A stretch of DNA of 64,000 bases, from assembly GCA_903944085.1 (NCBI GenBank), contig CAJAQO010000198.1:1-64000 (forward strand), in the 5' to 3' direction. The notes under the pieces were generated by a model. It was not told where the DNA came from, searched no databases, and was given only the letters and a program-made list of their open reading frames with translations. The stretch's first letter is position 1. Every line of letters begins with the position of its first letter. Positions 3,430-29,308 of this stretch are shown in pieces. A program made the position numbers and the translations under genes. Origin of the DNA: an uncultured Verrucomicrobia subdivision 3 bacterium. Lineage in GTDB: Bacteria > Verrucomicrobiota > Verrucomicrobiia > Limisphaerales > UBA11358.

Positions 3430-6363
3430 ATGAAACATATTAGCCTCTGGATTGGTCTGTGCCTGCTGGGCCAAGCCCGGTTGTTTGCAGCGGATTTGGA
3501 AGGCGATTTTCATCGGCCGCCGCCCGCCGCGCGCCCTTGGGTTTACTGGTATTTTATGGACGGCAATTTGTCGCGCGAAGGCATGACGGCGGATTTGGCG
3601 GCCATGAAACAGGCGGGCATCGGCGGCGCCATTTTTCTGGAGGTCAACCTCGGCATTCCGCGCGGGCCGGTGGATTTTATGAGTCCGCAATGGCAGGAAC
3701 TGGTCGCGCACGCGATGCGGGAGGCGGATCGTTTGGGCATTCAGATTGCACTGGGCGCCGGACCGGGCTGGTGTGGCACCGGCGGCCCATGGATCACGCC
3801 GGAACTCGCGATGCAGGATTTGGTGGCGAGCACCACCAATGTGGCGGGCCCGGAAGTGTTTTCAGCCGAACTGCCGCAACCACAGCCCCGCGAGCCTTTT
3901 TTCGGCGAGGGCACGCTGACCCCGGAACTCAAAAAAGAATGGCGCAATTTTTATCGGGATACCGCCGTGCTGGCGTTCCGCACGCCGGACGGCACGAACC
4001 GGATTGCCGAGGTGGATGAAAAAGCCCTTTATTATCGCGCCCCATTTTCATCACAACCGGGAGTAAAACCGTTTCTGCCCGCGCTGGCGGAATATCCGGC
4101 GCTGCCGGCGGCGGACTGCATCCAACCGGGCGACGTCGTGGATCTGACGCAACAGCTTACTTCCGCTGGCCAGCTGAATTGGAAGGTGCCTCCGGGCCGT
4201 TGGACCATCATGCGCTTTGGTCGCGCGCTGACCGGCCAGACGACGCGGCCCGCGCCGACGCCGGGTCTCGGTTTCGAAAGTGATAAGTTTAATCGCGCCG
4301 CACTGGACGCGCATTTTGCTGCTTATGTTCAGAAGCTGCTGGCCAGGATTGGACCGCGCACCAACGCGAACGGCGGACTGACGATGCTGCATTTCGACAG
4401 TTGGGAAATGAGTTCGCAAAACTGGTCGCCCGGATTTCGCGCGGAATTTCGAAAACGCCGGGGTTATGATCCGTTGAAATATTTGCCCGCGCTGACCGGT
4501 CGCGTCGTGGGCAGCGAGGAAATGTCGGAACGAGTCCTTTGGGATTTGCGGCGGACCGCCCAGGAACTCGTCGTGGAAAATCATGTCGGCTACTTGAAAA
4601 TACTGGCCCACCGGAACGGGCTGAAACTTTCCGTTGAACCTTATGACTTGAATCCTGCCGGCGATCTGACGCTCGGCCGGGTGGCCGACGTGCCGCAATG
4701 CGAGTTTTGGCATCTTGGTTTTGACACGGTTTACAGTGTCATCGAGGCGGCTTCGATTGCACACACCTGCGGCCGCAATGTGGTTGCCGCCGAAGCTTTC
4801 ACCAGCAATCCGGGTGAAGATTGGCAGGCCGATCCGGCTTCCTTGAAAGTGCAGGGCGACTGGGCGTTTTGCACCGGCGTGAACCGTTTAGATTTTCACC
4901 GTTTTCAGGCCCAGCCGTGGACCAATCGCTGGCCGGGTATGACGATGGGACCTTACGGTGTCCACTGGGATCGCACCCAGACTTGGTGGGATATGGTGCC
5001 CGCCTATCACGAATATCTGGCGCGTTGTCAGTCGCTCCTGCAGCGCGGCGTGACGGTGGCTGATGTTTGCTTTTTGGCAGGTGAAGGCGCGCCCTATGTT
5101 TTTCGCCCGCCGGATTCGGCCACGACCGGAAATCCACCGGATCACGGCGGCTTTAACTTCGATGGTTGCGCGCCGGAAACCTTGCTTGAACGGGCCGAGG
5201 TGAAAAATGGCCAAGTCGTGTTTCCCGGCGGCACCAGTTACCGCCTGCTCGTGCTGCCGGAGCAACGAACGATGACGCCCGCGTTGCTGGCCAAAATCAA
5301 ATCGCTCGTCCGCGCGGGCGCAACGGTATTCGGCCCGCCGCCGGAAAAATCACCGAGTCTGCAAAATTTTCCAAAATGTGACGCCACCATTCAAAAACTC
5401 GCCCGGGAGCTTTGGGGCGGCTGTGATGGCAAAACCGTTTTCGCACACGCCTTCGGCAAAGGCCAGGTGGTCTGGCGGGAAACAAAAGTCAAACCGCAGG
5501 CAGAATATGGCGATTTCGCTGCGGTCACGTCCGAGCTTGCAGCAATGGGGGTGGTGCCGGATTTTGTCGCGGCTGGTCCCATTCGTTTCACGCACCGGCG
5601 CGATGGGGACACGGACATTTATTTTCTCGCCAATCGGGAAGATCGCGCCGTCGAAACAACCTGCCAGTTCCGCACGGTCGGTCGCCAGCCTGAACTGTGG
5701 GATTCGCAGACCGGCAAGACGCGGGAATTGCCGCAATTCACTTTTGGCGACGGCTGCACCACCATTCCAATGCATCTTGATCCGGAGCAATCGTGCTTTG
5801 TCATTTTTCGGAAACCGGTGGCAAAGGTGGCAACTCAAGAAATAAACTTTCCAAGTTTCCGGGATGCCGGGGTGTCCTTCTCGGGTCCGTGGGAAGTCAG
5901 CTTCGATCCTAAATGGGGCGGGCCGGAAAAAATCAGCTTCGACACGCTGGACAATTGGAGCCGACGCCCGGAGGCTGGCATCAAGTATTACTCCGGCCGG
6001 GCAACTTACCGAAAAATATTTACTTTGCCGACCGCATCGGTGGTGGCGGGCCAAAAATATTTTCTGGACCTGGGCGTGGTGAAGAATCTGGCGCGCGTCC
6101 GCCTGAACGGCCACGATCTTGGTGTCATTTGGTGTCATCCATGGCGAATTGAAGTCAGCGACGCCATTCAGCCAGGGGAAAATCATTTGGAGATCGAGGT
6201 GGCCAACCTCTGGCCCAACCGGCTCATTGGCGACCAGTCGTTGCCGCCGGAGAAGCAATTTACTTGGACCACCCGTAATCCCTACCAGAAAAATTCGCCG
6301 CTGCTGTCGTCGGGCCTGCTCGGTCCGGTGGTGCTCTTGCAGGCAGATCCGGCGACCCATTAG
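3430..6363 (+). CDS. GH106-like alpha-L-rhamnosidase, secreted
   Basis: 977 aa with signal peptide; RPPPAARPWVYWYFMDGNLSREGMTADLAAMKQAGIGGAIFLEV, ALGAGPGWCGTGGPWITPELAMQDLV, and a C-terminal jelly-roll (YFLDLGVVKNLARVRLNGHDLGVIWCHPWRIEVSDAIQPGENHLEIEVANLWPNRLIGDQ) as in GH106-type glycosidases. Confidence 0.85.
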   Translation: MKHISLWIGLCLLGQARLFAADLEGDFHRPPPAARPWVYWYFMDGNLSREGMTADLAAMKQAGIGGAIFLEVNLGIPRGPVDFMSPQWQELVAHAMREADRLGIQIALGAGPGWCGTGGPWITPELAMQDLVASTTNVAGPEVFSAELPQPQPREPFFGEGTLTPELKKEWRNFYRDTAVLAFRTPDGTNRIAEVDEKALYYRAPFSSQPGVKPFLPALAEYPALPAADCIQPGDVVDLTQQLTSAGQLNWKVPPGRWTIMRFGRALTGQTTRPAPTPGLGFESDKFNRAALDAHFAAYVQKLLARIGPRTNANGGLTMLHFDSWEMSSQNWSPGFRAEFRKRRGYDPLKYLPALTGRVVGSEEMSERVLWDLRRTAQELVVENHVGYLKILAHRNGLKLSVEPYDLNPAGDLTLGRVADVPQCEFWHLGFDTVYSVIEAASIAHTCGRNVVAAEAFTSNPGEDWQADPASLKVQGDWAFCTGVNRLDFHRFQAQPWTNRWPGMTMGPYGVHWDRTQTWWDMVPAYHEYLARCQSLLQRGVTVADVCFLAGEGAPYVFRPPDSATTGNPPDHGGFNFDGCAPETLLERAEVKNGQVVFPGGTSYRLLVLPEQRTMTPALLAKIKSLVRAGATVFGPPPEKSPSLQNFPKCDATIQKLARELWGGCDGKTVFAHAFGKGQVVWRETKVKPQAEYGDFAAVTSELAAMGVVPDFVAAGPIRFTHRRDGDTDIYFLANREDRAVETTCQFRTVGRQPELWDSQTGKTRELPQFTFGDGCTTIPMHLDPEQSCFVIFRKPVAKVATQEINFPSFRDAGVSFSGPWEVSFDPKWGGPEKISFDTLDNWSRRPEAGIKYYSGRATYRKIFTLPTASVVAGQKYFLDLGVVKNLARVRLNGHDLGVIWCHPWRIEVSDAIQPGENHLEIEVANLWPNRLIGDQSLPPEKQFTWTTRNPYQKNSPLLSSGLLGPVVLLQADPATH

Positions 6364-8224: not shown

Positions 8225-11200
8225 GTGAATAAACTGAAATTGTCCAAAATAAAAATCGTTGTAGGTTTTGCTTTTCTGGGTGCATTGATGTTCGTCAATC
8301 CCACTTCGGCGCAACTTACTGTCATGACGACCAACCAGCAGGGTGCCTTGCCGCTAACCCCGACATGGACTCCGGCCACAGACAGTTTGATCGGCGGTCT
8401 GGTTCCCAGCACGGCATTGGGCAATTTCAGCGAGGAAGCTATCGGTCGGAATGTCAATTCCCTGACATCTGGCGGCGCTCTCACGATTACTTCGACAATG
8501 AACTCAGGAGGTTCAGGAACCACCGCCGGCACAAACTATGTGACCTGTGGCAATGCGGCCGGTGCCGGAAGCACGGTCATTTATACGCTGCCAGTTTCTA
8601 TCTATGGATATAATCTAACTAATATTACGGTTTACAGCGGCTGGCAAGACAATGGTCGCGACGCCCAGGCCTACACGGTATCTTATGCGACGGTGGTCAA
8701 TCCAACGGTGTTTACGGTGCTAACGTCTGTCAATTACAACCCATCAGTTCCAGGCAGCACCGCGTCAGCCAACCGCGTGATTCTTGCCGATGCGGCGGGC
8801 GGATTGATCGCCAGTAACACTGCCGCTGTGAAGTTTGATTTCACCTCGCCGAGTTCTGAGAATGGTTATTGTGGTTACGGTGCCATTACGGTCGAAGGAA
8901 TCGCAGCGACAAATGTGACTGGGCCGATCATTGTCATCACAACCTCAAACCAAAACAGCAGCGTCTCGTTTATCCCCACCTGGACGATTGAAACTAACAA
9001 TCTGATCGCCGGAAAGATGCCCAGCAGCATCGGTGCAGGCAACTTCACAATTGAATCTGGAGTGAGCGGCGTAAGCGCGCTGACAGACGGAACCTTTGGC
9101 GCAGTTGACAATAAAGCGTCCTATGCCACATGCGGTTCGCTTGGCGGGCAGTTGGTCACTTATACCATCGGCGGTGCCACCATTGCCAACATCGTGATTT
9201 ATAGTGGCTGGCCTGATCAAAATCGTGATGGCCAATTTTATAATATTACCTATTCGACCGTGTCGGCACCCACGACGTTCATCCCCTTGACGAGCGTTAA
9301 TTATAACCCCGCTGTCACGGGCATTTCTGCCAACCGGGTGGCCATTGCAAACAACAATGGCATGCCGCTTGCCACGAATGTGGCTTTCATTACATTCGAC
9401 TTTACTCCCCAAGATAGCAGCACTGATTACGGGTATTCGGGCTATGCTGAAATTGTTGTCGGCGGAGTTGCGCCACCCCAGGTCGCGATCCCCACAGCCT
9501 CGCCGTCCACCAATTTTTTTGTCGGCAGTTTGGTTGTGCTTTCAGAGTCTGCTCAAGGCCTTGCCCCATTCTATTATCATTGGCAAACTAATGGAACAGT
9601 CCTGCCTGGCGCCACCAATAGTTCCCTGACCTTGAGCAATCTCACCTTGGCGGCTTCCGGCAATTATAGTGTAATCGTTAGCAACGATTACGGCGCGGCC
9701 ACGAGCGCGCCGGTGAGGTTATCAGTGACACTCGATACAAATCCACCGGTGGTCCTGCGGGTCTTCAACCTAGGCCCGACAAATGTCGAGGTGGATTTTT
9801 CTAAAATGATCGAGGCCGCCAGCGCTACGAATCTGGCAAATTATCATTTTACCAACGGCTTGGCGATTGCGACCGCCGCACTCACGATCAACAACTCGTC
9901 AGTTTTGCTGACTATGGCACCGGTAGTTTATGGAACCAACTACAGCCTTGTCATTAATGGAATTCGTGATCGAGCCATTCCGCCGAATACCATTGTTACA
10001 AACACACAAGTCAGTTTTACGGCTTCGCCGTTTGCGCCGCTGGATATCGGCAATCCGGCCATTGCGTCCGCTGACATTTATACGGGCAGCGGCGTAATCA
10101 TCAACAGCGCCGGCACCTTGATTGGCGGCAACAGTGATCAGTTCAATTTTGAATATGAACTCCAGACCGGAAATTTCGACGTCTCGGTCTGCGTTGCTGG
10201 ATTGGGCTTGTCTGACCTTTGGGCACAAGCTGGTCTCATGGCGCGGGCAAGTTTGGATGCCAGCAGTCCTTTCGCCGCTGCGCTAGCCACGCCTAGTTTG
10301 AATGGAGAATTCTTTAATGCGCGGCTTACCACGAACGGTGCCGCCTCCACTTCGGGAAGTTTTCCCGTCAACTATCCCAACACTTGGCTGCGACTAAATC
10401 GTGTTGGCAATGTGTTCACTGGCTTCGGCAGTTACGACGGCACCAACTGGACGCAGTTGGGCAGCGTGACCATTGGGATGCCGGCGCAGATTTATCTCGG
10501 CCTGGCGGTGGCCAGTCATAGCTCCAGCCAACTGACTACGGCACAATTTGTGAATTATGAAAACACGCCCGCCGGTGCAGTGCTGGCGGCAACGGCCAAT
10601 CCGCACGAACCGTTGGGACCGAGCAGTCGCAAAACCGGCATAGTCATTTCCGAAATCATGTATAAACCTGCGCCGCGCACTGACAGCAACAATGTGGAGT
10701 TTTTGGAGATTTATAACTCCAACCCATTTTTTCAGGACATCAGCAGTTATCAAGTGACGTGTGCGGACATGAGCTACAAGTTTCCCGCCAACACGCTGAT
10801 TCCAGGTGGCGGCTTTTTCGTCTTGGCCGCTTCGCCGCAGGGCATCCAAAATGTTTATGGGCTGACGACTAATGTCTTTGGTCCCTATACTGGCAGCCTC
10901 AAGAAAACTGAGACCATTCAAGTGCTTGATGAGCAAAGCAACGTTTTACTCACGGTGCCTTATGCCAATGTTAATCCGTGGCCGGTGGCGGCGGATGGCA
11001 CAGGCCACTCCATTGTGCTGGCTAATCCTACTTACGGTGAAGAAGACCCGCGCGCCTGGGACATCAGCGACGTCGTGGGTGGTTCGCCCGACCAGATGGA
11101 ATCATTTCGCCCCAGTCCGCTCCGAAATGTGGTAATCAACGAAATCCTGCCACACTCGGAAAATCCTGCCCTGCCACAGTTCGTCGAACTCTATAATCAC

Positions 11201-14200
11201 AGCACAAACCTCGTGGATGTGTCGGGCTGCATTTTGACGGATGATCCGGCGACCAATAAGTTTGTTATCCCATTCGGCACCGTGATCAGCCCCGCTGGTT
11301 TTGTTTCCTTCACGCAACCGCAATTGGGTTTCACGCTCAACGGCGCGGGTGAGACGCTTTACTTCATCAAACCGGATCACAGCCGTGTCTTGGACGCCGT
11401 TCAATTCGGTCCGCAGGCCAACGGTGTTTCCTATGGCCGCTGGCCGGATGGTGCGAATGACTTTTATGCCTTGACCACCAATACGCCGGGCACGAACAAC
11501 AGCGCCATTGTCGTTGGTGATATTGTCATCAATGAACTGATGTATGACCCGATCAGCGGCAATGACGCCGACCAATACATCGAACTTTACAACAAAGGAA
11601 CGAACGCCGTCAATTTGGCCGGCTGGCAGTTCACCGCCGGAGTTACTTTCACTTTTCCCAGCGTGACAATTGCACCGAATGGTTATTTGGTGATTGCTCA
11701 AAACATGACCAATTTATTCGCCAAATACACCAACTTAAACAGCGGCAACACGGTGGGCAATTACAGTGGCAAGTTATCGCACAGCGGCGAGTTACTGGTG
11801 TTAGCCATGCCGCAGACCCTTTACACCAATACAATCATCTTGGTGGCGGAAGACCAGGTGGCTTATGGTGTCGGCGGACGCTGGGGTGAATGGTCTTCTG
11901 GCGGCGGCAGCAGTCTCGAATTGGTTGATCCACATTCCAATCATCGGCTGGCCGCGAATTGGGCGGACAGCGATGAATCCCAGAAATCTGTCTGGGTGGA
12001 CATTGAAAACACGGGCGTGCTGGACAATGGAGCGAATTATGATCCGTCCATTGATTACGCGCAGATTGGCCCGCTGGATGTCGGAGAATGTTTGGTGGAT
12101 AACATCGAGGTGGATTACAACGGGAGCAACTATGTTTCCAACGGCACGTTTGAAGGAAGCGCAGGCGTTGCCAACTGGTCGTTCCAAGGCTGCATGGTGC
12201 GTTCGAGTTTGGAAAACAGCGGCTATGGCGGCGGCGGCCATTCCTTGCATATTCGGTGCAGCGACCGGCTATGGACCGGAGTCAATTCCTGCCAGGTCAC
12301 TTTGAATGCAAACTCGATGGCAGCCGGGCAGACGGCGACGCTCCGCTTCAAGGCGCGCTGGCTGCACGGGTGGCCGGAAGCCCTGTTGCGCTTGAATGGC
12401 AACTGGCTCGAAGCTGCGGGAGCAATGCCGGTTCCGACTAACCTCGGCTCACCGGGCGCTCCAAACAGCCGGTTTTCACCCAATGCCGGACCGGCTATCT
12501 ACAACGTAAATCATACTCCAAGCCTGCCGGCAGCCAACCAAGCGGCCGTGGTGAGCGCTCAGGTGCATGACCCGGATGCCATTACCAACCTGACACTTTA
12601 TTACCGGCTTGATCCGGCGACGACTTATACCGCCGTGCCAATGAATGACAACGGCATGGGTGGTGATGCGATTGCCGGCGACGGCGTTTTCAGCGCGGCC
12701 ATTCCCGGCCAAAGTGCGAATACGATTGCCGCGTTTTACATCTCCGCCACGGACACATCGGGAGCGGTGACGCGTTTTCCGGCGATCCGCGCCAATGACA
12801 ACGAACCGGTGCGCGAAGGCTTGGTCATGTTTGGCGACGGCACTCCGGGCGGCAGCTTTGGCGTGTATCATTTGTGGATCACGCAATCGAATGCGAACCG
12901 ATGGGCCAGTTTATCCGACCTAAGCAACGAGGGAAATGATTGCACCTTCGTGAACGACTCCCGCGTGATTTACAACCTGCAGGGCCGGTTTGCAGGTAGT
13001 CCGGCGCATCAGGAGTTTGACACTCCCACAGGCAACTTGTGCCATTACAAATGGATTTTCAATGACGATGACAAGTTTTTGGGGGCGACATCTTTCAACA
13101 AAATTCATCAGCCGGGAAACTCTCCGGGCGATGATCCCAGCATCCAGCGCGAACAGTTGGCCAACACGTTTCTGCACACGCTGGGGGTGCCCTGGCTCTA
13201 CAAACGCTACGCGGCGGTCTATGTCAACGGCAATCGCCGGGGCACTTTGATGGAAGACACCCAGGTGCCGGACGGTGATATCGTGAAAGAACATTTTCCC
13301 AATGACACCGGTGGCTTCCTTTACAAAATGCAACCCTGGTTTGAAATGGCCCCATTCCCTTCGGGTTCCAGCATCGGCGTTGACCTTCAATCCTGGTGCT
13401 GCCTGATGCCTTATACTACCACCGGAGGCATGAAGAAAGCTTCCCGCTACCGCTACATGTTTGAGCTCCGCCGCGCGCCGGATTCGGACAGCGATTTTAC
13501 CAATGTCTATTCCCTGGTGGATGCGGCCAGTTCTTATGGCACACCCAACTATGTGGCCAATATGGAGAATCTGGCGAACATGGAAAATTGGATGCGGGTG
13601 TTCGCCGCCAACCACGCGGCGGGAAACTTTGACGCTTATGGTTCGCAAAACGCCCAGAATCTTTATGGCTACATCGGCACGCTGGGCACAAAATACTCCT
13701 TGTTGATGTGGGATTTCAACATTGTTATTGGTGTCCCTGGCGTCGGTTACTCCGCTTGGGCGCCGGGCCAGAACTTATTCACTGTTAATGGTGCGGATGC
13801 CAACACACAGAACATTTACAACGAGCCAACCTTCCGGCGGATGTATTGGCGAGCATTGCAGGAACTGGTCAATGGACCTCTAAACACAGCCAATAGCGGA
13901 CCTCTGGTGACGGCCAAATACAACGCATTTGTTGCCAACGGACTCAGTGTCGAAAATCCTGCCGTGAACATTGAGCCTTGGCTGTCGCAGGCGCAGAGTA
14001 GCATTGCGTTGCAACTGGCGGCCGTCAATGCCGCCAGTTTCGCCGTGAATACCACCGTGACGACCTGTAACAATATGGCGTATGTTACCGGCCAGGCACC
14101 GGTTAATGTGGCCACCGTCTGGATCAACGACGTGGCGTATCCTCTAACTTGGATCACGCTGACCAATTGGGTCGTCAAATTGCCTTTGGCCAGCGGAACC

Positions 14201-16210
14201 AATCAGTTGAGTGTGGTGGGTGTGGGACTCAATGGTCTGCCGATCACGGGTGACAGCAACAGTGTCAGCGTCGTCTATAACGGAACTAATTCATCGCCCG
14301 TCGGCCAGATTGTCCTCAATGAAATCATGTATGCGCCGACGGTTAATAACGCGCAGTTTGTCGAACTTTATAATAGCTCCAGTAACATGATGTTTGACCT
14401 GTCGGGTTGGCAATTACAGGGGCTGGGTTACACTTTCCCGAATGGCTCGACTCTCGCGCCGACCAATTATTTGGTGCTGGCGGCAAATGGCGCGGCGTTC
14501 GCTGGCGCGTATGGCGCGACTAATCCGGTGTTTGACACTTTTGACGGCACTTTATCCGCCAATGGGGAAACGCTTACGTTGACGACTTCCAGCAATCTGA
14601 CGGTGACCAAGGTGAGATATGCCAATCAACTGCCTTGGCCGACGAACGCCAACGGCACCGGTGCGTCCTTGCAGTTGATGGACTCGCGACAGGACAACTG
14701 GCGCGTCGGCAATTGGTCCGCGACAACCCGGTCTGCCACGCCCAGTTGGCGGAACAATGGGGCAACTTTGTTGGCTCCATTTCCATCGTTGTGGCTTAAT
14801 GAAGTGCAGGCCGACAATTTGAACGGCATCACCAACCGCATCGGCCAGCACACGGGTTGGCTAGAACTTTACAATCCCGGCACCAATGGCATTTCATTGA
14901 ACGGACTCTATCTGGCCGATAACTATACCAACCTGTTGCAGTGGTCATTCCCGACGAATGCCAGCATCGGCGCCGGCCAGTTCAAGGTGATTTTTGCTGA
15001 CGCACTCACCAACCTTTCGACGACCAACGAATGGCACACCAGTTTTGTGCTGCCGAGTGGCACCGGTTCGCTGGCCTTGACCCGGCTGGCTACCAACGGC
15101 CAGCCGCAGGTGCTCGACTATCTGGACTACCAAAATGTTTATCCGAACGATTCCTATGGTTCGTTTCCTGATGGACAAAGTTTCTACCGTCAGGAATTTT
15201 TCCAGCCGACGCCGGGCGCTCTCAATAATGCCACCGCCACGCCGCCGGCTTCTTTTATTAATTATACTTCGCCCAGTTCCGTCTATAGTCAAAATTTTGA
15301 CACGTTGCCCGATCCGGGCGCGGCTTCGGTAAACAGCGCCAATACGGTGACTATCAATGGTGTCACTTACTCGCTGGCCAATCCTTATGATTTCGCCTTC
15401 CCGGCCGTGGTCAGCGGCAGCAGCGGCGGCCTAGGCATCTCCACGCTGGCCGGCTGGTGTGGTAAGAGTATTTTGGAAACCCGCTTTGGAGCGACGGATG
15501 GCGATCAAACCTCGGGAGGGCAGATCAGCTTTGGTTTGCCCAGCAGTTCCAACCGGGCCTTGGGTCTGCTGGCGACCAGCACTACGGGCGCCACTGCTTT
15601 TGGCGTGCGGATCATCAACGGAACCGGCATTACATTGACGCGGATGAACCTTCAGTTTACCGGTGAGGTCTGGCGGCAATCCAATCTGCCCAAGACCCTG
15701 CAATTTTATTATTTCGTTGATGTGACTGGCACCAACACCTTCAGCACCAACCAGACGGCGGCGATTCCCGCCTTGAATGTGAGCTTGCCCACTGCGTCGG
15801 CGGATGTGAACGGCGTGGCCGTGGACGGCACTTCGCCGCTCAACCAAACTAATTTGAGCGTGTTGGATCAGCCTATCACCAACTGGTCGCCGGGCGCAGC
15901 TTTGTGGCTGGTGTGGCAGATGAGCGATGCCACGGGGAAGGCCCAGGGTTTGGCTATTGATAATCTCAGCTTCTCCGCCAGCATTCCGCTGTCCGTGCCG
16001 CTGAACATCCAAACTTCTGGCACCAATCTCTGGCTGAACTGGCCGGCGGCGGCAGGTCAAACCTATCAATTGGAATACAAAGACAATCTCGCGTCGCCGG
16101 TCTGGACCCCGCTGGGCGGTCCGGTGACCGGAACGGGTGCGAGCCTGACGCTGACCAACAATTTTGGCGCCTCGCCGCAACGATTTTTCCGGTTGCGGCT
16201 GGTGAATTAG
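8225..16210 (+). CDS. Giant secreted modular protein: two novel ~190-aa modules, Ig-like domain, beta-sandwich domain, lamin-tail domains flanking a CotH-kinase-like domain
   Basis: 2661 aa, GTG start, signal peptide (MNKLKLSKIKIVVGFAFLGALMFVNPTSAQ). LTD-like segments: IVISEIMYKPAPR.., VVINEILPHSENPALPQFVELYN.., IVINELMYDPISGNDADQYIELYN.., IVLNEIMYAPTVNNAQFVELYN.., LWLNEVQADN... CotH-like: FNKIHQPGNSPGDDPSIQREQLANTFLHTLGVPWLYKRYAAVYVNGNRRGTLMEDTQVPD. Ends GASPQRFFRLRLVN. Confidence 0.85.
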   Translation: MNKLKLSKIKIVVGFAFLGALMFVNPTSAQLTVMTTNQQGALPLTPTWTPATDSLIGGLVPSTALGNFSEEAIGRNVNSLTSGGALTITSTMNSGGSGTTAGTNYVTCGNAAGAGSTVIYTLPVSIYGYNLTNITVYSGWQDNGRDAQAYTVSYATVVNPTVFTVLTSVNYNPSVPGSTASANRVILADAAGGLIASNTAAVKFDFTSPSSENGYCGYGAITVEGIAATNVTGPIIVITTSNQNSSVSFIPTWTIETNNLIAGKMPSSIGAGNFTIESGVSGVSALTDGTFGAVDNKASYATCGSLGGQLVTYTIGGATIANIVIYSGWPDQNRDGQFYNITYSTVSAPTTFIPLTSVNYNPAVTGISANRVAIANNNGMPLATNVAFITFDFTPQDSSTDYGYSGYAEIVVGGVAPPQVAIPTASPSTNFFVGSLVVLSESAQGLAPFYYHWQTNGTVLPGATNSSLTLSNLTLAASGNYSVIVSNDYGAATSAPVRLSVTLDTNPPVVLRVFNLGPTNVEVDFSKMIEAASATNLANYHFTNGLAIATAALTINNSSVLLTMAPVVYGTNYSLVINGIRDRAIPPNTIVTNTQVSFTASPFAPLDIGNPAIASADIYTGSGVIINSAGTLIGGNSDQFNFEYELQTGNFDVSVCVAGLGLSDLWAQAGLMARASLDASSPFAAALATPSLNGEFFNARLTTNGAASTSGSFPVNYPNTWLRLNRVGNVFTGFGSYDGTNWTQLGSVTIGMPAQIYLGLAVASHSSSQLTTAQFVNYENTPAGAVLAATANPHEPLGPSSRKTGIVISEIMYKPAPRTDSNNVEFLEIYNSNPFFQDISSYQVTCADMSYKFPANTLIPGGGFFVLAASPQGIQNVYGLTTNVFGPYTGSLKKTETIQVLDEQSNVLLTVPYANVNPWPVAADGTGHSIVLANPTYGEEDPRAWDISDVVGGSPDQMESFRPSPLRNVVINEILPHSENPALPQFVELYNHSTNLVDVSGCILTDDPATNKFVIPFGTVISPAGFVSFTQPQLGFTLNGAGETLYFIKPDHSRVLDAVQFGPQANGVSYGRWPDGANDFYALTTNTPGTNNSAIVVGDIVINELMYDPISGNDADQYIELYNKGTNAVNLAGWQFTAGVTFTFPSVTIAPNGYLVIAQNMTNLFAKYTNLNSGNTVGNYSGKLSHSGELLVLAMPQTLYTNTIILVAEDQVAYGVGGRWGEWSSGGGSSLELVDPHSNHRLAANWADSDESQKSVWVDIENTGVLDNGANYDPSIDYAQIGPLDVGECLVDNIEVDYNGSNYVSNGTFEGSAGVANWSFQGCMVRSSLENSGYGGGGHSLHIRCSDRLWTGVNSCQVTLNANSMAAGQTATLRFKARWLHGWPEALLRLNGNWLEAAGAMPVPTNLGSPGAPNSRFSPNAGPAIYNVNHTPSLPAANQAAVVSAQVHDPDAITNLTLYYRLDPATTYTAVPMNDNGMGGDAIAGDGVFSAAIPGQSANTIAAFYISATDTSGAVTRFPAIRANDNEPVREGLVMFGDGTPGGSFGVYHLWITQSNANRWASLSDLSNEGNDCTFVNDSRVIYNLQGRFAGSPAHQEFDTPTGNLCHYKWIFNDDDKFLGATSFNKIHQPGNSPGDDPSIQREQLANTFLHTLGVPWLYKRYAAVYVNGNRRGTLMEDTQVPDGDIVKEHFPNDTGGFLYKMQPWFEMAPFPSGSSIGVDLQSWCCLMPYTTTGGMKKASRYRYMFELRRAPDSDSDFTNVYSLVDAASSYGTPNYVANMENLANMENWMRVFAANHAAGNFDAYGSQNAQNLYGYIGTLGTKYSLLMWDFNIVIGVPGVGYSAWAPGQNLFTVNGADANTQNIYNEPTFRRMYWRALQELVNGPLNTANSGPLVTAKYNAFVANGLSVENPAVNIEPWLSQAQSSIALQLAAVNAASFAVNTTVTTCNNMAYVTGQAPVNVATVWINDVAYPLTWITLTNWVVKLPLASGTNQLSVVGVGLNGLPITGDSNSVSVVYNGTNSSPVGQIVLNEIMYAPTVNNAQFVELYNSSSNMMFDLSGWQLQGLGYTFPNGSTLAPTNYLVLAANGAAFAGAYGATNPVFDTFDGTLSANGETLTLTTSSNLTVTKVRYANQLPWPTNANGTGASLQLMDSRQDNWRVGNWSATTRSATPSWRNNGATLLAPFPSLWLNEVQADNLNGITNRIGQHTGWLELYNPGTNGISLNGLYLADNYTNLLQWSFPTNASIGAGQFKVIFADALTNLSTTNEWHTSFVLPSGTGSLALTRLATNGQPQVLDYLDYQNVYPNDSYGSFPDGQSFYRQEFFQPTPGALNNATATPPASFINYTSPSSVYSQNFDTLPDPGAASVNSANTVTINGVTYSLANPYDFAFPAVVSGSSGGLGISTLAGWCGKSILETRFGATDGDQTSGGQISFGLPSSSNRALGLLATSTTGATAFGVRIINGTGITLTRMNLQFTGEVWRQSNLPKTLQFYYFVDVTGTNTFSTNQTAAIPALNVSLPTASADVNGVAVDGTSPLNQTNLSVLDQPITNWSPGAALWLVWQMSDATGKAQGLAIDNLSFSASIPLSVPLNIQTSGTNLWLNWPAAAGQTYQLEYKDNLASPVWTPLGGPVTGTGASLTLTNNFGASPQRFFRLRLVN

Positions 16211-21725: not shown

Positions 21726-22580
21726 TTGCAAATCATGAAAAAACTGAGATCGGCCAAAGCGGTGAAGCGGGCCTTTACCTTGATCGAACTGCTGGTGGTG
21801 ATTGCCATCATCGCCATTCTCGCGGCCATGCTCCTGCCGGCGCTGTCCAAGGCCAAAGCGAAGGCGAATGGCATTAGCTGCATCAGCAATTTGAAGCAGC
21901 TCACGCTGGGAGCTCATGTGTATGCGGCCGACTTTCGCGACGCGATCATTATCAACACCTCCAGTTCAACTGCTAACACCTGGGTGTTGGGCAATGTTGG
22001 TGGCAGCACATTCACTACAGACTGGACCAATACCGCGCTCATCAGCGCCTCCCTGCTTTTTCCCTCGTGCAGTTCCCTGGGCTGCTACCATTGCCCGGGA
22101 GACAAGGCCTATGTCAACGGAACCATCCTGCCACGCGCTCGCAGTTATTCGATGAATGGCATGATGGGGGACAACGGCCCGACCCTCCGGGCGGCGGCAA
22201 ACAATCCGCATCCGGGGATCATGGAAAATCTCAAGTTCTCCTCCGTCCGCGATCCAAGTCCTTCGGCGGCGTCACTATTCGTTGACGAACAGACGGATGC
22301 TTCTTCGGCGGCAAATAACAGCCTGGATGACGGCTACTACGCCGTTAATTTCACCGATACTGGCCGGACTTGGCGCAATTGTCCGGCGAGTCGGCATGGT
22401 AATTATGGACAATTTTCTTTTGCGGACGGTCACGCGGGAATAATGAAATGGGTTGAACCGAATACCCGCAATCTGCAAGGGCTGGATGACAGCACCCACG
22501 GGCAATTTAAGGACCGGGATCTGCACCAGGTATGGTTATCAACTTATTCCGCAAGTGCTCCCGGCAACCCCTGGCCGTAA
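21726..22580 (+). CDS. Type II secretion-type pseudopilin (prepilin-type N-terminal cleavage/methylation domain)
   Basis: 284 aa (TTG/ATG start region); [59 protein letters not shown]-terminal FSFADGHAG motif typical of PVC pseudopilins. Confidence 0.92.
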
Positions 22581-22656: not shown

Positions 22657-25600
22657 ATGAACTTCACCCCCAAAATCATAACTGTGGTGATGGCGATGCT
22701 TGCCCTTGCAGTGGGGTTGGCCGGGCTGACGGCACAAGCCGCATTATTGCCGGTGAATTTGCGCTGCGCGCTACGCGTCAATCCATTGGGCGTGGGCGAC
22801 GCCATGCCCCGACTTTCCTGGCAACTGCAAAGCGGCGGACAGAGAGGCGAGACGCAAAGCGCCTACCAGATCCAAGTCGGTTCGGCGGCTGGTGCGGCGG
22901 ACTTATGGGACAGCGGTAAAGTCGCGAGCAGTGCGACAATGGATGTATTGTATGCCGGTCAGCCGTTGACGAGCGGCGAAAAATGTTTCTGGCAGGTGCG
23001 GGTGTATGACGGCAGTAACAACTTATCAGCTTGGAGCGCGCCGGCGCAATGGTCCATGGGACTTCTGGCGCCAACGGATTGGACGGCGCAATGGATCGGC
23101 TATGATGCCGCCTACAATCTGACAGCGGCCCAAGCCGCAAACAATGCGTTGTTCAACACCACGGGACTTAACTGGATTAGTTATTCAGGGCAAACGCCGC
23201 ATGGCAATATCTATCAGTCTTCATTGCGGAAGCAAGTGATCATGCCATCGGGCAAAACCATCACCAATGCCATCATGGCACTTTATGCCGACAATTTTTG
23301 CGGCGTCTTTGTTAATGGGCAGCAAATGACTAATTCGGCTATGCGCTGGGAAGCTACTGCTTGGATCAATGTGACACCATGGCTGCATCCGGGCACCAAC
23401 GAACTGGCGCTCGCCGCCACGAACAGCGACGCCCAAGAGCTGGCCAGCGTGATCGGACAACTCGTGGTGCAGTTCGCCTCCGGCGGCGTCTCCAATATTC
23501 CGGTAGATACTTCTTGGAAGGCCGCGCAATGGCCGTCAGGCAGTTGGACCCAGACAAATTATAATGATTCGGCCTGGGCCACGCCTGCCAGTGGCGGCAG
23601 CCCATGGGGCACGCCCGCGCTCAACGATCTGGCACGGGTTCCCGCGCCGTTTTTGCGCAAAAACTTTTCGGTAGGCCAGTCGGTCACGCGCGCGACCGTC
23701 TATGTCACCGCGCTGGGTGCTTATGAATTGCATCTCAACGGCCAGAAGGTGGGCAACGATGTGCTGACGCCGGGCTGGACACAATTCACAAAACGGGTTT
23801 ATTACCAGACCTATGATGTCACTGGCATGGTGCAGAGCGGCTCCAACACCATCAGTGCGATTCTCGGCGATGGCTGGTATGCCAGCGATCTCGCCTTCAA
23901 AGGCAGCCGCAACAACTACGGCGGAAATCCGCGATTTTTAGCGCAGCTTGTCCTGAAACTTGCCGATGGCAGCACGCAAACGGTCGTCAGCGATGGTTCC
24001 TGGAAAGCGAGTTACGGCCCGATCCAATTCGGCGACCTTCTCATTGGCTCAGGTTATGACGCGCGGCTGGAAATGCCTGGCTGGGATACCACGAATTTCA
24101 TTGACAGCAGTTGGTCGCCGGTCTTGACTGGCTTAAGCGCCGCCGCTCTCGGCTACTCAAATGTGACGGCCATCGTGGCGGGTTTGGTGACGAACAATCA
24201 GCTCAATTTTGTGGCAAGCAATGGTAATCTCGGCGGTGATCCCGCTTATGGCACCGTAAAGACATTGCAAATTACCTTCCTACTTGGCGGCACGAATCAG
24301 ACGCTTTCATTCGCGGAAAATGCGACCGTGAACATTGGCGGATCGGGACGAACTTTGACGATTCTTCAGGCACTCTATGGCAATGCGGCTCAGTTTCCCG
24401 GCGTTGGCGGTCTGCAAGTGCAGGCTGCCGTTACGGAACCTGCCCGGTGTTTGGAAACATTGGCGGCCACCAATCTTACCCTGCCGAAACCCGGTTGTTA
24501 TACATTCGATCTGGGGCAAAATATGGTCGGCTGGGTGCAGCTAAATATCAGCGGCAGCATCGGCGACCGCATCACGGTGCGCCATGGCGAAATGCTGAAT
24601 CCCGACGGCTCGATTTACACCGCCAACCTGCGGGGCGCCAACGCGACGGACTTTTATATTTTTGGCACCAATGGCAACGTGGTCTTCCAACCGCGTTTCA
24701 CCTTCCACGGTTTTCGCTATGTCGAGGTGCGTGGACTGTCCGTGCCGCCCACGCTGAATTCGGTGACGGGCATCGTCGTGCATTCGGACATGCCGCTCAC
24801 GGGTGCTTTCGCTTGTTCGAGTCCGCTAGTAAACCAGCTCTACCGCAATATTATTTGGGGGCAGAAAGGAAATTATCTCGAAGTTCCTTCGGATTGTCCG
24901 CAGCGGGATGAACGCATGGGCTGGACGGGCGACACGGAATTTTTCGTGCCGACTGCGGCTTATAACTTCGATGTCCAATCCTTCTTCCGCCGGCACTTAG
25001 TCACGTTGTGTGAGGACTCACAGCATTCCGATGGTTCTTATGCCGTCGTCGCGCCGGACATGGGGCAAGGAAGCGGCGGGACCGCCTGGGGTGATGCCGG
25101 CTGGATCTGCCCATATAACATGTATCGCGCCTATGGTGATACAAATGTGATCACCGACCACTATGCCTCGTTTGTGCGCTGCGGACAATTCGACGCCGCC
25201 AATGCTGCAAACTTTGTGATTGCGAGTTTGCCCGGCGATTTTGGCGACTGGTTAAACCTGGGTGGCGGCGCCACTTCTACCGTGATGGACACGGCCTTTT
25301 ATGCCTACTATGCCCAGGCGATGTCGGAGATGGCTGCGGCCATTGGCAACAGCGCGGATGCCGCCACTTATTCCACGCTGCATAGTAACATTGTGGCTGC
25401 GTTCGCAAATTTCTTCAACGCGGACGGCTCGTTTGCCGATGGCAGCGGTCAAACGGGTTACGCGCTGGCGTTCACTTTGAATTTGGTGCCTGCCGGACTG
25501 CGCGCGCAAGCCGCCCAACAGTTTGCCAATTCCATAGCGCAATTTGGCAATCATCTGGCCACGGGCTTCATCGGCACACCACGACTGTTGCCCGCGTTGC

Positions 25601-26997: not shown

Positions 26998-27071
26998 AAT
27001 CCCTCGGATCAATTCCGCGAGTTATATCGTCCTTGGCGTTTTTGGCGAAAAGGACTAAACTGCGAGGGATT
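26998..27071. repeat. Nested inverted repeat between GH78 and histidine kinase genes
   Basis: Outer 9-bp arms AATCCCTCG (26998-27006) / CGAGGGATT (27063-27071), inner GTCCTT (27029-27034) / AAGGAC (27050-27055). Confidence 0.55.
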
Positions 27072-28599
27072 GCAACGATTAGTTAATTTTTTGCACTGGC
27101 TTCGATCGTGGTTGAAAGGTTGTCAAATTGGGTCAACCACGTTGCTGGCCTCAGCTTTATGTTTCGCGGCGCTCATTCCGGTGCCGGCGAAAGGCCAAAC
27201 TGTTGGCACCCAGCCGATGGTTCAACAAAGCCTCGAGCCTTACGTCAGTCCGACCAACGGCCTTGGCTCGTGGATTTGGGCCAGCAACACTTTTGACGGG
27301 CAGAAATGTCAACTGTGGAAAACTTTTGAGATTCCGTCGGGCAGCATGGTTACTAATGCCCGGCTCGTGATGACGGTGGATAACGAATTTACGCTTTTCC
27401 TCGACGGACGTGAGTTGGGGCATGGCGCCGAGTGGCACGAATTGTTCGTTTTTGATTTGTCCCGGATTTTGTCTCCGGGCAGACATATTCTGGCCGTCGA
27501 GGCGTTAAACGGTTTTTCTTTCGCGGGAATGCTCTTTGGATTGCAGGTGGAACTGGCAGATGGACGAGTAATTATAGTCAAATCGGACAATAGCTGGCGG
27601 ATTGTTCCTGATGGAGTAAGCCGGTGGCAAAAAAAGAGTGAACTCCAGCCGGGCTGGCCCGCAGCTACGATTATTGCGCCGTTGGGAAGCCTTCCTTGGT
27701 GGACGCAGCCGCTAAATGTGGACAAGATGCCCTCGCTGGAACCCATCAAAGTATTCTTTTGGCAGACCGGCTGGTTTCAGATCACGCTGCTTTTCATCTG
27801 TGGCTTGGTGATCTTGATCAGTCTTCGGCTCATGGCCCAACTGGCGCTGCACCAAAAAGAACGCTGGCTGTTGCAGCGGGAGCGTGCGCGGATCGCCCGG
27901 GAGATTCACGACGACATCGGCTCGCGCATGACGCAACTGCTGCTGCACGGCGAAGTGGCGCAAAGCGGGTTGCCGGCCGGCTCGGAAACGCAGCAACAAT
28001 TGGTTCAAATCTGCGCTGAAGCGCGCGGACTGCTCTCAACCATGGACGAAATTCTTTGGGCGGTAAATCCCCGGCGGGACACGCTGCGCGATTTTGCCGC
28101 CTATGTTTGCAACTACGCGGAGGAGTTTCTGGAACCCACGCCCATCCAGTGTTTGTTTGAGGTGGATCCGGAAATGTTGTCCGCGACGTTTACGCTGCCG
28201 GTCCGGCGCAGCCTGCTCATGGCCATCAAAGAAGCGCTTAATAATGCGGTCAAACATTCGGCCGCCACCGAATTGCGCCTTCAAATCCAATGGCAAAGCT
28301 CGCAATTGGTTGTGGTGGTGCAGGACAACGGCAAGGGCTTTGACCCGGTGACGATGAAATCGGAGCGCAACGGCCTGCGCAACATGAGCCAGCGCATGAC
28401 TGAACTGGGCGGCGCTTGTCATATCACCAGTCAGCCCGGCAAAGGCTGTCGCGCCGAATTCAGCATTCCATTGAAGCATCCGCAGCGGCGGCTGTGGTCG
28501 TGGTTTTGGAATTTGAACGAAGTTTCGCCGCCGAGCAGCGAACCGAACCCGGTGCCGACCAATGAACCTTCACAAAAACATGACCCCACCCAATGTTAA
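27070..28599 (+). CDS. Membrane sensor histidine kinase (NarL/HisKA_3 type) with periplasmic GH78-N-domain-like input module
   Basis: 509 aa, TTG start in track (exact start uncertain; other TTG candidates at 27091 and 27112). Signal-like segment, extracellular GSWIWASNTFDGQKCQLWKTFEIPSGSMVTNARLVMTVDNEFTLFLDGRELG.., TM WFQITLLFICGLVILISLRLMAQL, RARIAREIHDDIGSRMTQLLLHGE (H-box), VVVVQDNGKGFDP (ATPase). Confidence 0.9.
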   Translation: MQRLVNFLHWLRSWLKGCQIGSTTLLASALCFAALIPVPAKGQTVGTQPMVQQSLEPYVSPTNGLGSWIWASNTFDGQKCQLWKTFEIPSGSMVTNARLVMTVDNEFTLFLDGRELGHGAEWHELFVFDLSRILSPGRHILAVEALNGFSFAGMLFGLQVELADGRVIIVKSDNSWRIVPDGVSRWQKKSELQPGWPAATIIAPLGSLPWWTQPLNVDKMPSLEPIKVFFWQTGWFQITLLFICGLVILISLRLMAQLALHQKERWLLQRERARIAREIHDDIGSRMTQLLLHGEVAQSGLPAGSETQQQLVQICAEARGLLSTMDEILWAVNPRRDTLRDFAAYVCNYAEEFLEPTPIQCLFEVDPEMLSATFTLPVRRSLLMAIKEALNNAVKHSAATELRLQIQWQSSQLVVVVQDNGKGFDPVTMKSERNGLRNMSQRMTELGGACHITSQPGKGCRAEFSIPLKHPQRRLWSWFWNLNEVSPPSSEPNPVPTNEPSQKHDPTQC

Positions 28600-29308
28600 A
28601 ATGACCAAGCCGGTCAAAGGAAACCGGCCGGTCGAACCGGCATTAAAACGGCAGCTTAAAGTCGCCCTGGTCGAGGACCAGCCGGAAGTCCGGGAAAGCT
28701 GGATCAAACTCATCAATTCGTTTGCGGACTTCGCCTGCGTCTGCGCCTGCGGCAGTGGCGAGGAAGCGTTGCGGATGATTCCCCAGGAAACACCCGACGT
28801 CGTGCTCATGGACATATTTCTCCCGCGCATGTCTGGCATCGAATGCACCGTGCGGCTCAAGGCGCTGCTGCCGCAAACTCAGATCGTCATCCTCACGGCC
28901 ATGGCGGATCAGGAACTGGTTTTTCTGGCGCTGGAAGCCGGGGCCGATGGTTACCTGCTGAAACGGACGAAGCCGGCGGACTTACGGACCGCTTTGCTGG
29001 ACGTGCTGGGCGGCGGGGCACCGATGTCGAGCCAGATCGCGCGCCGCGTGATTGAATCATTTCGACAAAAAGCCAAAATCCGGGATGAATTCGCACATCT
29101 TTCCATCCGCGAAGAGCAAATTTTAATGCTGCTTTCGCAGGGCTATGCAAACAAGGTGATCGCCGACAAACTGGAGTTGAGCATTGACACGGTATGCAGT
29201 CATTTGAAGCATGTATTTACGAAGTTGCAGGTGAGTTCGCGCACCGAAGCCGTGGTCCGTTACATGGCCTCCAAAACCCCGCCGCACAAGCCGGACGATC
29301 TGTCTTGA
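28562..29308 (+). CDS. NarL/LuxR-family response regulator
   Basis: 248 aa; receiver VALVEDQPEVRESW..DVVLMDIFLPRMSGIECTVRLKALLP..IVILTAMADQE, LuxR HTH REEQILMLLSQGYANKVIADKLELSIDTVCSHLKHVFTKLQVSSRTEAVV. Overlaps the kinase 3' end. Confidence 0.94.
   Translation: MNLHKNMTPPNVKMTKPVKGNRPVEPALKRQLKVALVEDQPEVRESWIKLINSFADFACVCACGSGEEALRMIPQETPDVVLMDIFLPRMSGIECTVRLKALLPQTQIVILTAMADQELVFLALEAGADGYLLKRTKPADLRTALLDVLGGGAPMSSQIARRVIESFRQKAKIRDEFAHLSIREEQILMLLSQGYANKVIADKLELSIDTVCSHLKHVFTKLQVSSRTEAVVRYMASKTPPHKPDDLS

Follow-up and report, generated by a model that had tools for sequence, protein, structure and literature searches.

A two-component system with a CBM67-type sensor module beside alpha-L-rhamnosidase genes in a Verrucomicrobia genome

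The locus and its two-component system

The DNA analysed here, called the window below, is a stretch of 64,000 nucleotides (64 kb) from an uncultured Verrucomicrobia subdivision 3 bacterium of the order Limisphaerales. Its two GH78 genes and one GH106 gene mark a rhamnosidase-rich locus, and a sensor histidine kinase gene and a response regulator gene lie between the two GH78 genes (Table 1). The first-pass annotation had placed the kinase next to the 1443-aa GH78 on the same strand, and this arrangement was borne out, with a gap of about 80 bp separating the 3′ end of the rhamnosidase gene from the kinase start. Near the rhamnosidase genes, positions 8225-16210 encode a 2661-aa protein in which a CotH kinase domain and five matches to the lamin-tail domain are recognised. 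Prepilin-type (N_methyl) proteins are encoded beside CBM67-kinase loci at 21726-22580 of the window and at 8139-9011 of L080 (L numbers denote the compared loci), and their cluster is present in 23 loci.

Table 1. Coordinates of the features of the window
Feature	Position	Strand	Basis
GH106 alpha-L-rhamnosidase, 977 aa	3430..6363	+	Glyco_hydro_106 2.6e-187
GH78 alpha-L-rhamnosidase, 1443 aa	22657..26988	+	Bac_rhamnosid6H 6.9e-101
CBM67-type module of the 1443-aa GH78, residues 167-323	23155..23625	+	phmmer, AF2, Foldseek
Sigma70-like promoter TTGGCG-N17-TAAACT, -10 ending 8 nt 5′ of the TTG start (putative)	27033..27061	+	Sequence
Sensor histidine kinase, 509 aa, TTG start	27070..28599	+	Pfam domains; start supported by ATG at the equivalent place in L075
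N-terminal hydrophobic segment, residues ~20-42 (signal anchor or signal peptide)	27127..27195	+	Read from sequence
CBM67-type sensor module, residues ~60-225	27247..27744	+	phmmer, AF2, Foldseek
D104-N105	27379..27384	+	Aligned to SaRha78A D179-N180 and POL Ca2+-site Asp-Asp
Second transmembrane helix, residues ~235-255	27772..27834	+	Read from sequence
HisKA_3 phosphoacceptor domain, residues 271-335, H-box REIHDDIG	27880..28074	+	Pfam 8.6e-9
HATPase_c domain, residues 380-469	28207..28476	+	Pfam 1.3e-12
Response regulator (NarL/LuxR type), Response_reg + LuxR/GerE	28562..29308	+	Pfam
Second GH78 alpha-L-rhamnosidase, 980 aa	36336..39278	+	Bac_rhamnosid6H 1.7e-118

From the N terminus, the kinase is composed of a membrane segment, a CBM67-type module, a transmembrane helix, HisKA_3 and HATPase_c, and the module, lying between two membrane segments, is predicted to be periplasmic. 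HisKA_3, HATPase_c and a receiver-LuxR partner, all above Pfam cut-offs, identify the pair as a two-component system of the HisKA_3 type; kinase and regulator are products of separate genes, which overlap by 38 bp, and do not form the single polypeptide that defines a hybrid two-component system (HTCS). The regulator gene family is found in 53 compared loci, mostly directly 3′ of the kinase. By Pfam, the kinase lacks the (alpha/alpha)6 catalytic domain of GH78, and the part common to kinase and rhamnosidase is the CBM-type module only.

The layout of the putative promoter (TTGGCG-N16/17-TAnnnT, 8 nt to the start) recurs in seven relatives (L102, L103, L107, L108, L110, L111 and L075), and in L075 the start codon that follows it is ATG, not TTG. 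This recurrence suggests that the kinase is expressed from its own promoter as a leaderless mRNA with an unusual start codon. An inverted repeat at 26998-27068, between the GH78 and kinase genes, overlaps the putative promoter and forms a more stable fold than shuffled sequences do (z -2.9).

Identity and origin of the sensor module

A phmmer comparison of the kinase N terminus with the genome of the window matched the 1443-aa GH78 at residues 167-323 (3.8e-9), confirming a resemblance that the first-pass annotation had noticed; the homology it had placed at 27270-27600 extends further, over about 160 residues. The counterpart in the rhamnosidase is not the N-terminal domain, as had been supposed. 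Pfam locates the matched stretch between Ig_Rha78A_N (residues 32-137) and Bac_rhamnosid_N (342-490), the place taken by CBM67 in SaRha78A, and these coordinates rule out both the N-terminal Ig domain and Bac_rhamnosid_N. On the kinase module itself Pfam was uninformative, returning only Glyco_hydro_2_N below cut-off.

The kinase module matched residues 138-293 of SaRha78A (PDB 3W5M; phmmer E 4.1e-7) and, best among solved structures, the Pleurotus lectin POL in each of its two repeats (~3e-17). An AlphaFold (AF2) model of the module, built from 18 aligned relatives, reached a pLDDT of 84.2, and Foldseek ranked 3W5N, SaRha78A with L-rhamnose, first (TM 0.72, rmsd 2.1), followed by structures of POL, among them its rhamnose complex 6KC2, and then by other GH78 enzymes. 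The model of the GH78 module is weaker (pLDDT 68.8), and its best matches are again 3W5N/3W5M (TM 0.64-0.65), so that the two domains independently lead to the same solved structures. Since the top 11 Foldseek matches of the kinase module are all GH78 enzymes or POL, with GH2-type jelly rolls far lower, a generic jelly-roll likeness was ruled out. Judged by homology and modelled fold, the kinase sensor is a CBM67-type module of the rhamnosidase kind.

In SaRha78A, CBM67 depends on calcium and has been observed with L-rhamnose bound (PMC4690510). It shares 27-30% identity with the kinase module over the module's length, and its D179-N180, W203 and N228 align with D104-N105, W122 and N147 of the kinase. 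In modules of the window's clade the putative site is nearly invariant: D is present in 37/37, N in 34/37 (D in the remaining three), W in 37/37 and N in 37/37. The SaRha78A counterparts are ligand-contact residues, and those of the kinase are its presumed Ca2+/sugar site. The two modules differ in setting, an enzyme accessory in SaRha78A and the input domain of a membrane kinase here, where binding is predicted, and also at the position of P233. In POL-type lectins an Asp pair holds the Ca2+ for sugar binding and a Pro/Val position contributes (PMC11512411). The POL prolines align to P233, a position that is changed in the kinases, to F in that of the window and to F, E, A, Y or S across its clade; proline occurs in only 7/14 GH78 modules, and hence was not taken as defining CBM67 membership.

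The change at P233 implies that the sugar choice of the kinase module may differ from that of SaRha78A and POL. It lends some weight to the idea that the kinase senses a different glycan, containing for example galactose, mannose or uronic acid, and that the rhamnosidases are merely part of a complex-polysaccharide locus. Nor does the CBM67 fold fix the sugar, since POL structures in the PDB include melibiose, GalNAc, glycerol and rhamnose complexes (PMC11512411 for POL-type lectins). At the site itself, the kinases have the Asp-Asn of SaRha78A and not the Asp-Asp of POL, which argues in the opposite direction. POL (6KC2, 6T1D, 6LI7) and the shiitake lectin Shictin share the CBM67-type jelly-roll with the kinases, and their tandem modules have parallels among the sensors described below; unlike the kinases, they are fungal lectins that bind several sugars.

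The first-pass annotation had further suggested that the binding domain of the adjacent rhamnosidase was co-opted as a sugar sensor. The general idea of a rhamnosidase domain turned to sensing fits the type of the module, its retained site residues and the gene linkage of the clade, but its derivation from this neighbour does not survive. Adjacency, a shared strand and membership of one domain family are what would be expected had the sensor been duplicated from the adjoining GH78 in this lineage. The module tree, which is based on 146 columns and has long branches in its GH78 part, nevertheless puts all kinase modules on one side of a 99-supported branch. The module of the window shares 66-75% identity with the kinase modules nearest to it, but 27-29% with the nearest of the GH78 modules examined and 30% with SaRha78A; elsewhere, moreover, the same kinase adjoins GH106 genes. 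We regard such a local duplication as excluded by tree and identities for practical purposes. On the strength of the supported grouping and the identity gap, the CBM67 domain most likely joined the kinases once, long ago, before the family spread.

Distribution, gene neighbourhoods and sensor variants

Verrucomicrobia living in soil, peat and lakes are degraders of complex polysaccharides, and those that carry the kinase come from soil and freshwater. Kinases with this sensor are present in the family of the window, turn up here and there across its order, and extend to two genomes from elsewhere in the class. Among the near relatives in public databases, most are MAGs that carry the label Limisphaerales or Verrucomicrobia subdivision 3. 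We compared the neighbourhoods of 73 kinases with a CBM67-type sensor with those of a control set, 40 other HisKA_3 kinases encoded in these genomes, counting as linked any kinase with a GH78 or GH106 gene within about 10 kb. The kinase tree has two sides, separated with support 99, of which one is the window's clade (n = 35) and the other a sister group (n = 38). Linkage was found for 26/35 members of the window's clade and 2/40 controls (Fisher p = 2e-10), whereas the sister group (5/38) did not differ from controls (p = 0.26); both p values overstate independence, as the linked loci are phylogenetically related, although the linkage label requires 13-14 changes on the tree. The expectation that HisKA_3 kinases with this domain would lie next to rhamnosidase genes thus holds for one clade, and the contrary case that had been raised, the same sensor with no glycosidase linkage, is found in the sister group and in at least three members of the clade (L078, L081 and L106) that are unlinked despite good flanks; several other unlinked members lie on short contigs. 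A rhamnosidase link for every kinase with the module is ruled out, and the term 'rhamnose sensor' is proposed for the window's clade only.

Within the linked loci, 35/39 rhamnosidase genes are on the kinase strand, and linkage spans both rhamnosidase families in differing gene orders. Rhamnosidases dominate the CAZymes among the neighbours, followed by GH92 (3), RicinB lectin (3) and WbsX (2); Ig-domain surface proteins are also numerous, and a tally by NCBIfam gained little over Pfam. The genome of the window has a second, paralogous CBM67 two-component system (G000:C184; locus L006, 2914-5173), which adjoins a divergent GH106 gene and has a GH78 gene 11.5 kb downstream. PATR/LamG surface proteins and GH78 follow that system in L006 (1-19166).

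These neighbourhoods bear on what the module binds. GH92 and GH76 genes near some members, together with a sister group that has no rhamnosidase link, are compatible with a sensor for some other sugar, but an enrichment that covers two rhamnosidase families and brings few other CAZymes is not what that reading would lead one to expect, and we consider it a minority possibility. It is also conceivable that the module binds no sugar at all and has a structural or protein-interaction role, responding for example to envelope state or a protein partner, with the neighbourhood an inherited linkage. Sister-group modules retain the same site residues, so their conservation may be partly structural; L106, L112 and L100 lie among housekeeping genes, and what lies downstream of many kinases of the sister group is not an enzyme gene but one for a large PATR or Ig surface protein. 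Set against this are the near invariance of the D, N, W and N site in the window's clade, the recurrence of linkage across gene orders and enzyme families, and the fact that domains added to some sensors are further carbohydrate modules, and we judge a non-binding module improbable.

The added domains define several variants of the CBM67 core. Tandem CBM67 modules, as in POL, are present in L076 (kinase 3980-6208) and L080 (kinase 9192-11348). Kinases of ~930 aa in L058, L059, L060, L062, L068 and L071 form one group of the tree; the scanned example, L058 (8078-10873), combines F5/8C (best match 6EON, 8e-33), a GH43/BT_3657-like propeller, CBM67, a transmembrane helix and HisKA_3, and L060 has the same sequence pattern. 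Both L058 and L060 contain an EGP motif that is similar to the catalytic acid of GH43. In L109 (3871-7056) a CBM67 kinase and a WbsX/GH99-like domain share one open frame, with a GH106 gene nearby. Such variants point to sensors assembled from carbohydrate-active (glycosidase) parts, and the tandem and composite forms fit glycan sensing. A broader proposition, to which we give even weight for and against, is that Limisphaerales and some other Verrucomicrobia possess a histidine-kinase family of modular glycan receptors, built on a CBM67 core (single, tandem, or with F5/8C and GH43-like propeller or WbsX/GH99-like additions) from glycosidase parts, in which one clade is dedicated to rhamnose-containing glycans.

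Proposed sensing and relation to known systems

We propose, as the fairly probable reading, that 27070-29308 encodes a two-component system that senses terminal L-rhamnose, or a close sugar, through a periplasmic CBM67-type module and controls the locus. For the window's clade we infer that terminal L-rhamnose, carried by glycans on which the adjoining enzymes act, is the likeliest ligand. The GH78 and GH106 enzymes would trim or present oligosaccharides ending in L-rhamnose or a closely related sugar, which, together with Ca2+, would bind at the D104-N105-W122-N147 site. The two modules of a kinase dimer would then probably be held differently, for example by both capturing one multivalent glycan, shifting the attached transmembrane helices. 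SaRha78A is reported to change little upon ligand binding (PMC4690510), and for this reason bivalent capture or dimer reorientation seems likelier than an internal change of shape. The HisKA_3 domain would phosphorylate the NarL/LuxR-type regulator, which in turn would switch the locus's genes for rhamnosidases and surface proteins. The kinase would thus probably report rhamnose-rich sugar chains to the cell.

Because the input domain has solved, ligand-bound relatives, the signal is directly testable. In genomes, a CBM67 kinase may also mark the regulation of rhamnosidases, and the module could become a part for rhamnose biosensors. Our search, which covered mainly the open literature, found no description of a CBM67-bearing or rhamnose-linked kinase or of a CBM67-type glycan sensor in Verrucomicrobia, and the novelty of the CBM67-bearing kinase is therefore provisional.

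HTCS proteins sense through beta-propeller/Y_Y_Y domains. Like the system proposed here, the HTCS of Bacteroides polysaccharide utilisation loci are membrane histidine kinases that sense glycans and govern nearby glycosidase genes (PMC10766802). They differ in that kinase and regulator are fused, whereas here a classical HisKA_3 kinase carries a CBM and works with a separate NarL-type regulator. A second parallel is provided by the RsgI-type anti-sigma factors of Clostridium, which use extracellular carbohydrate-binding modules or glycosidase domains as polysaccharide sensors; to our knowledge CBM67 is not among them. Sigma/anti-sigma systems of this sort act on the cellulosome genes of C. thermocellum (PMC10766802). 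Both designs place carbohydrate modules outside the membrane as sensors, but the signal passes by anti-sigma release in the Firmicutes and by the proposed phosphorelay here. If the proposal is true, carbohydrate-binding modules have been recruited into phosphorelay sensing, as they have been elsewhere into anti-sigma factors.
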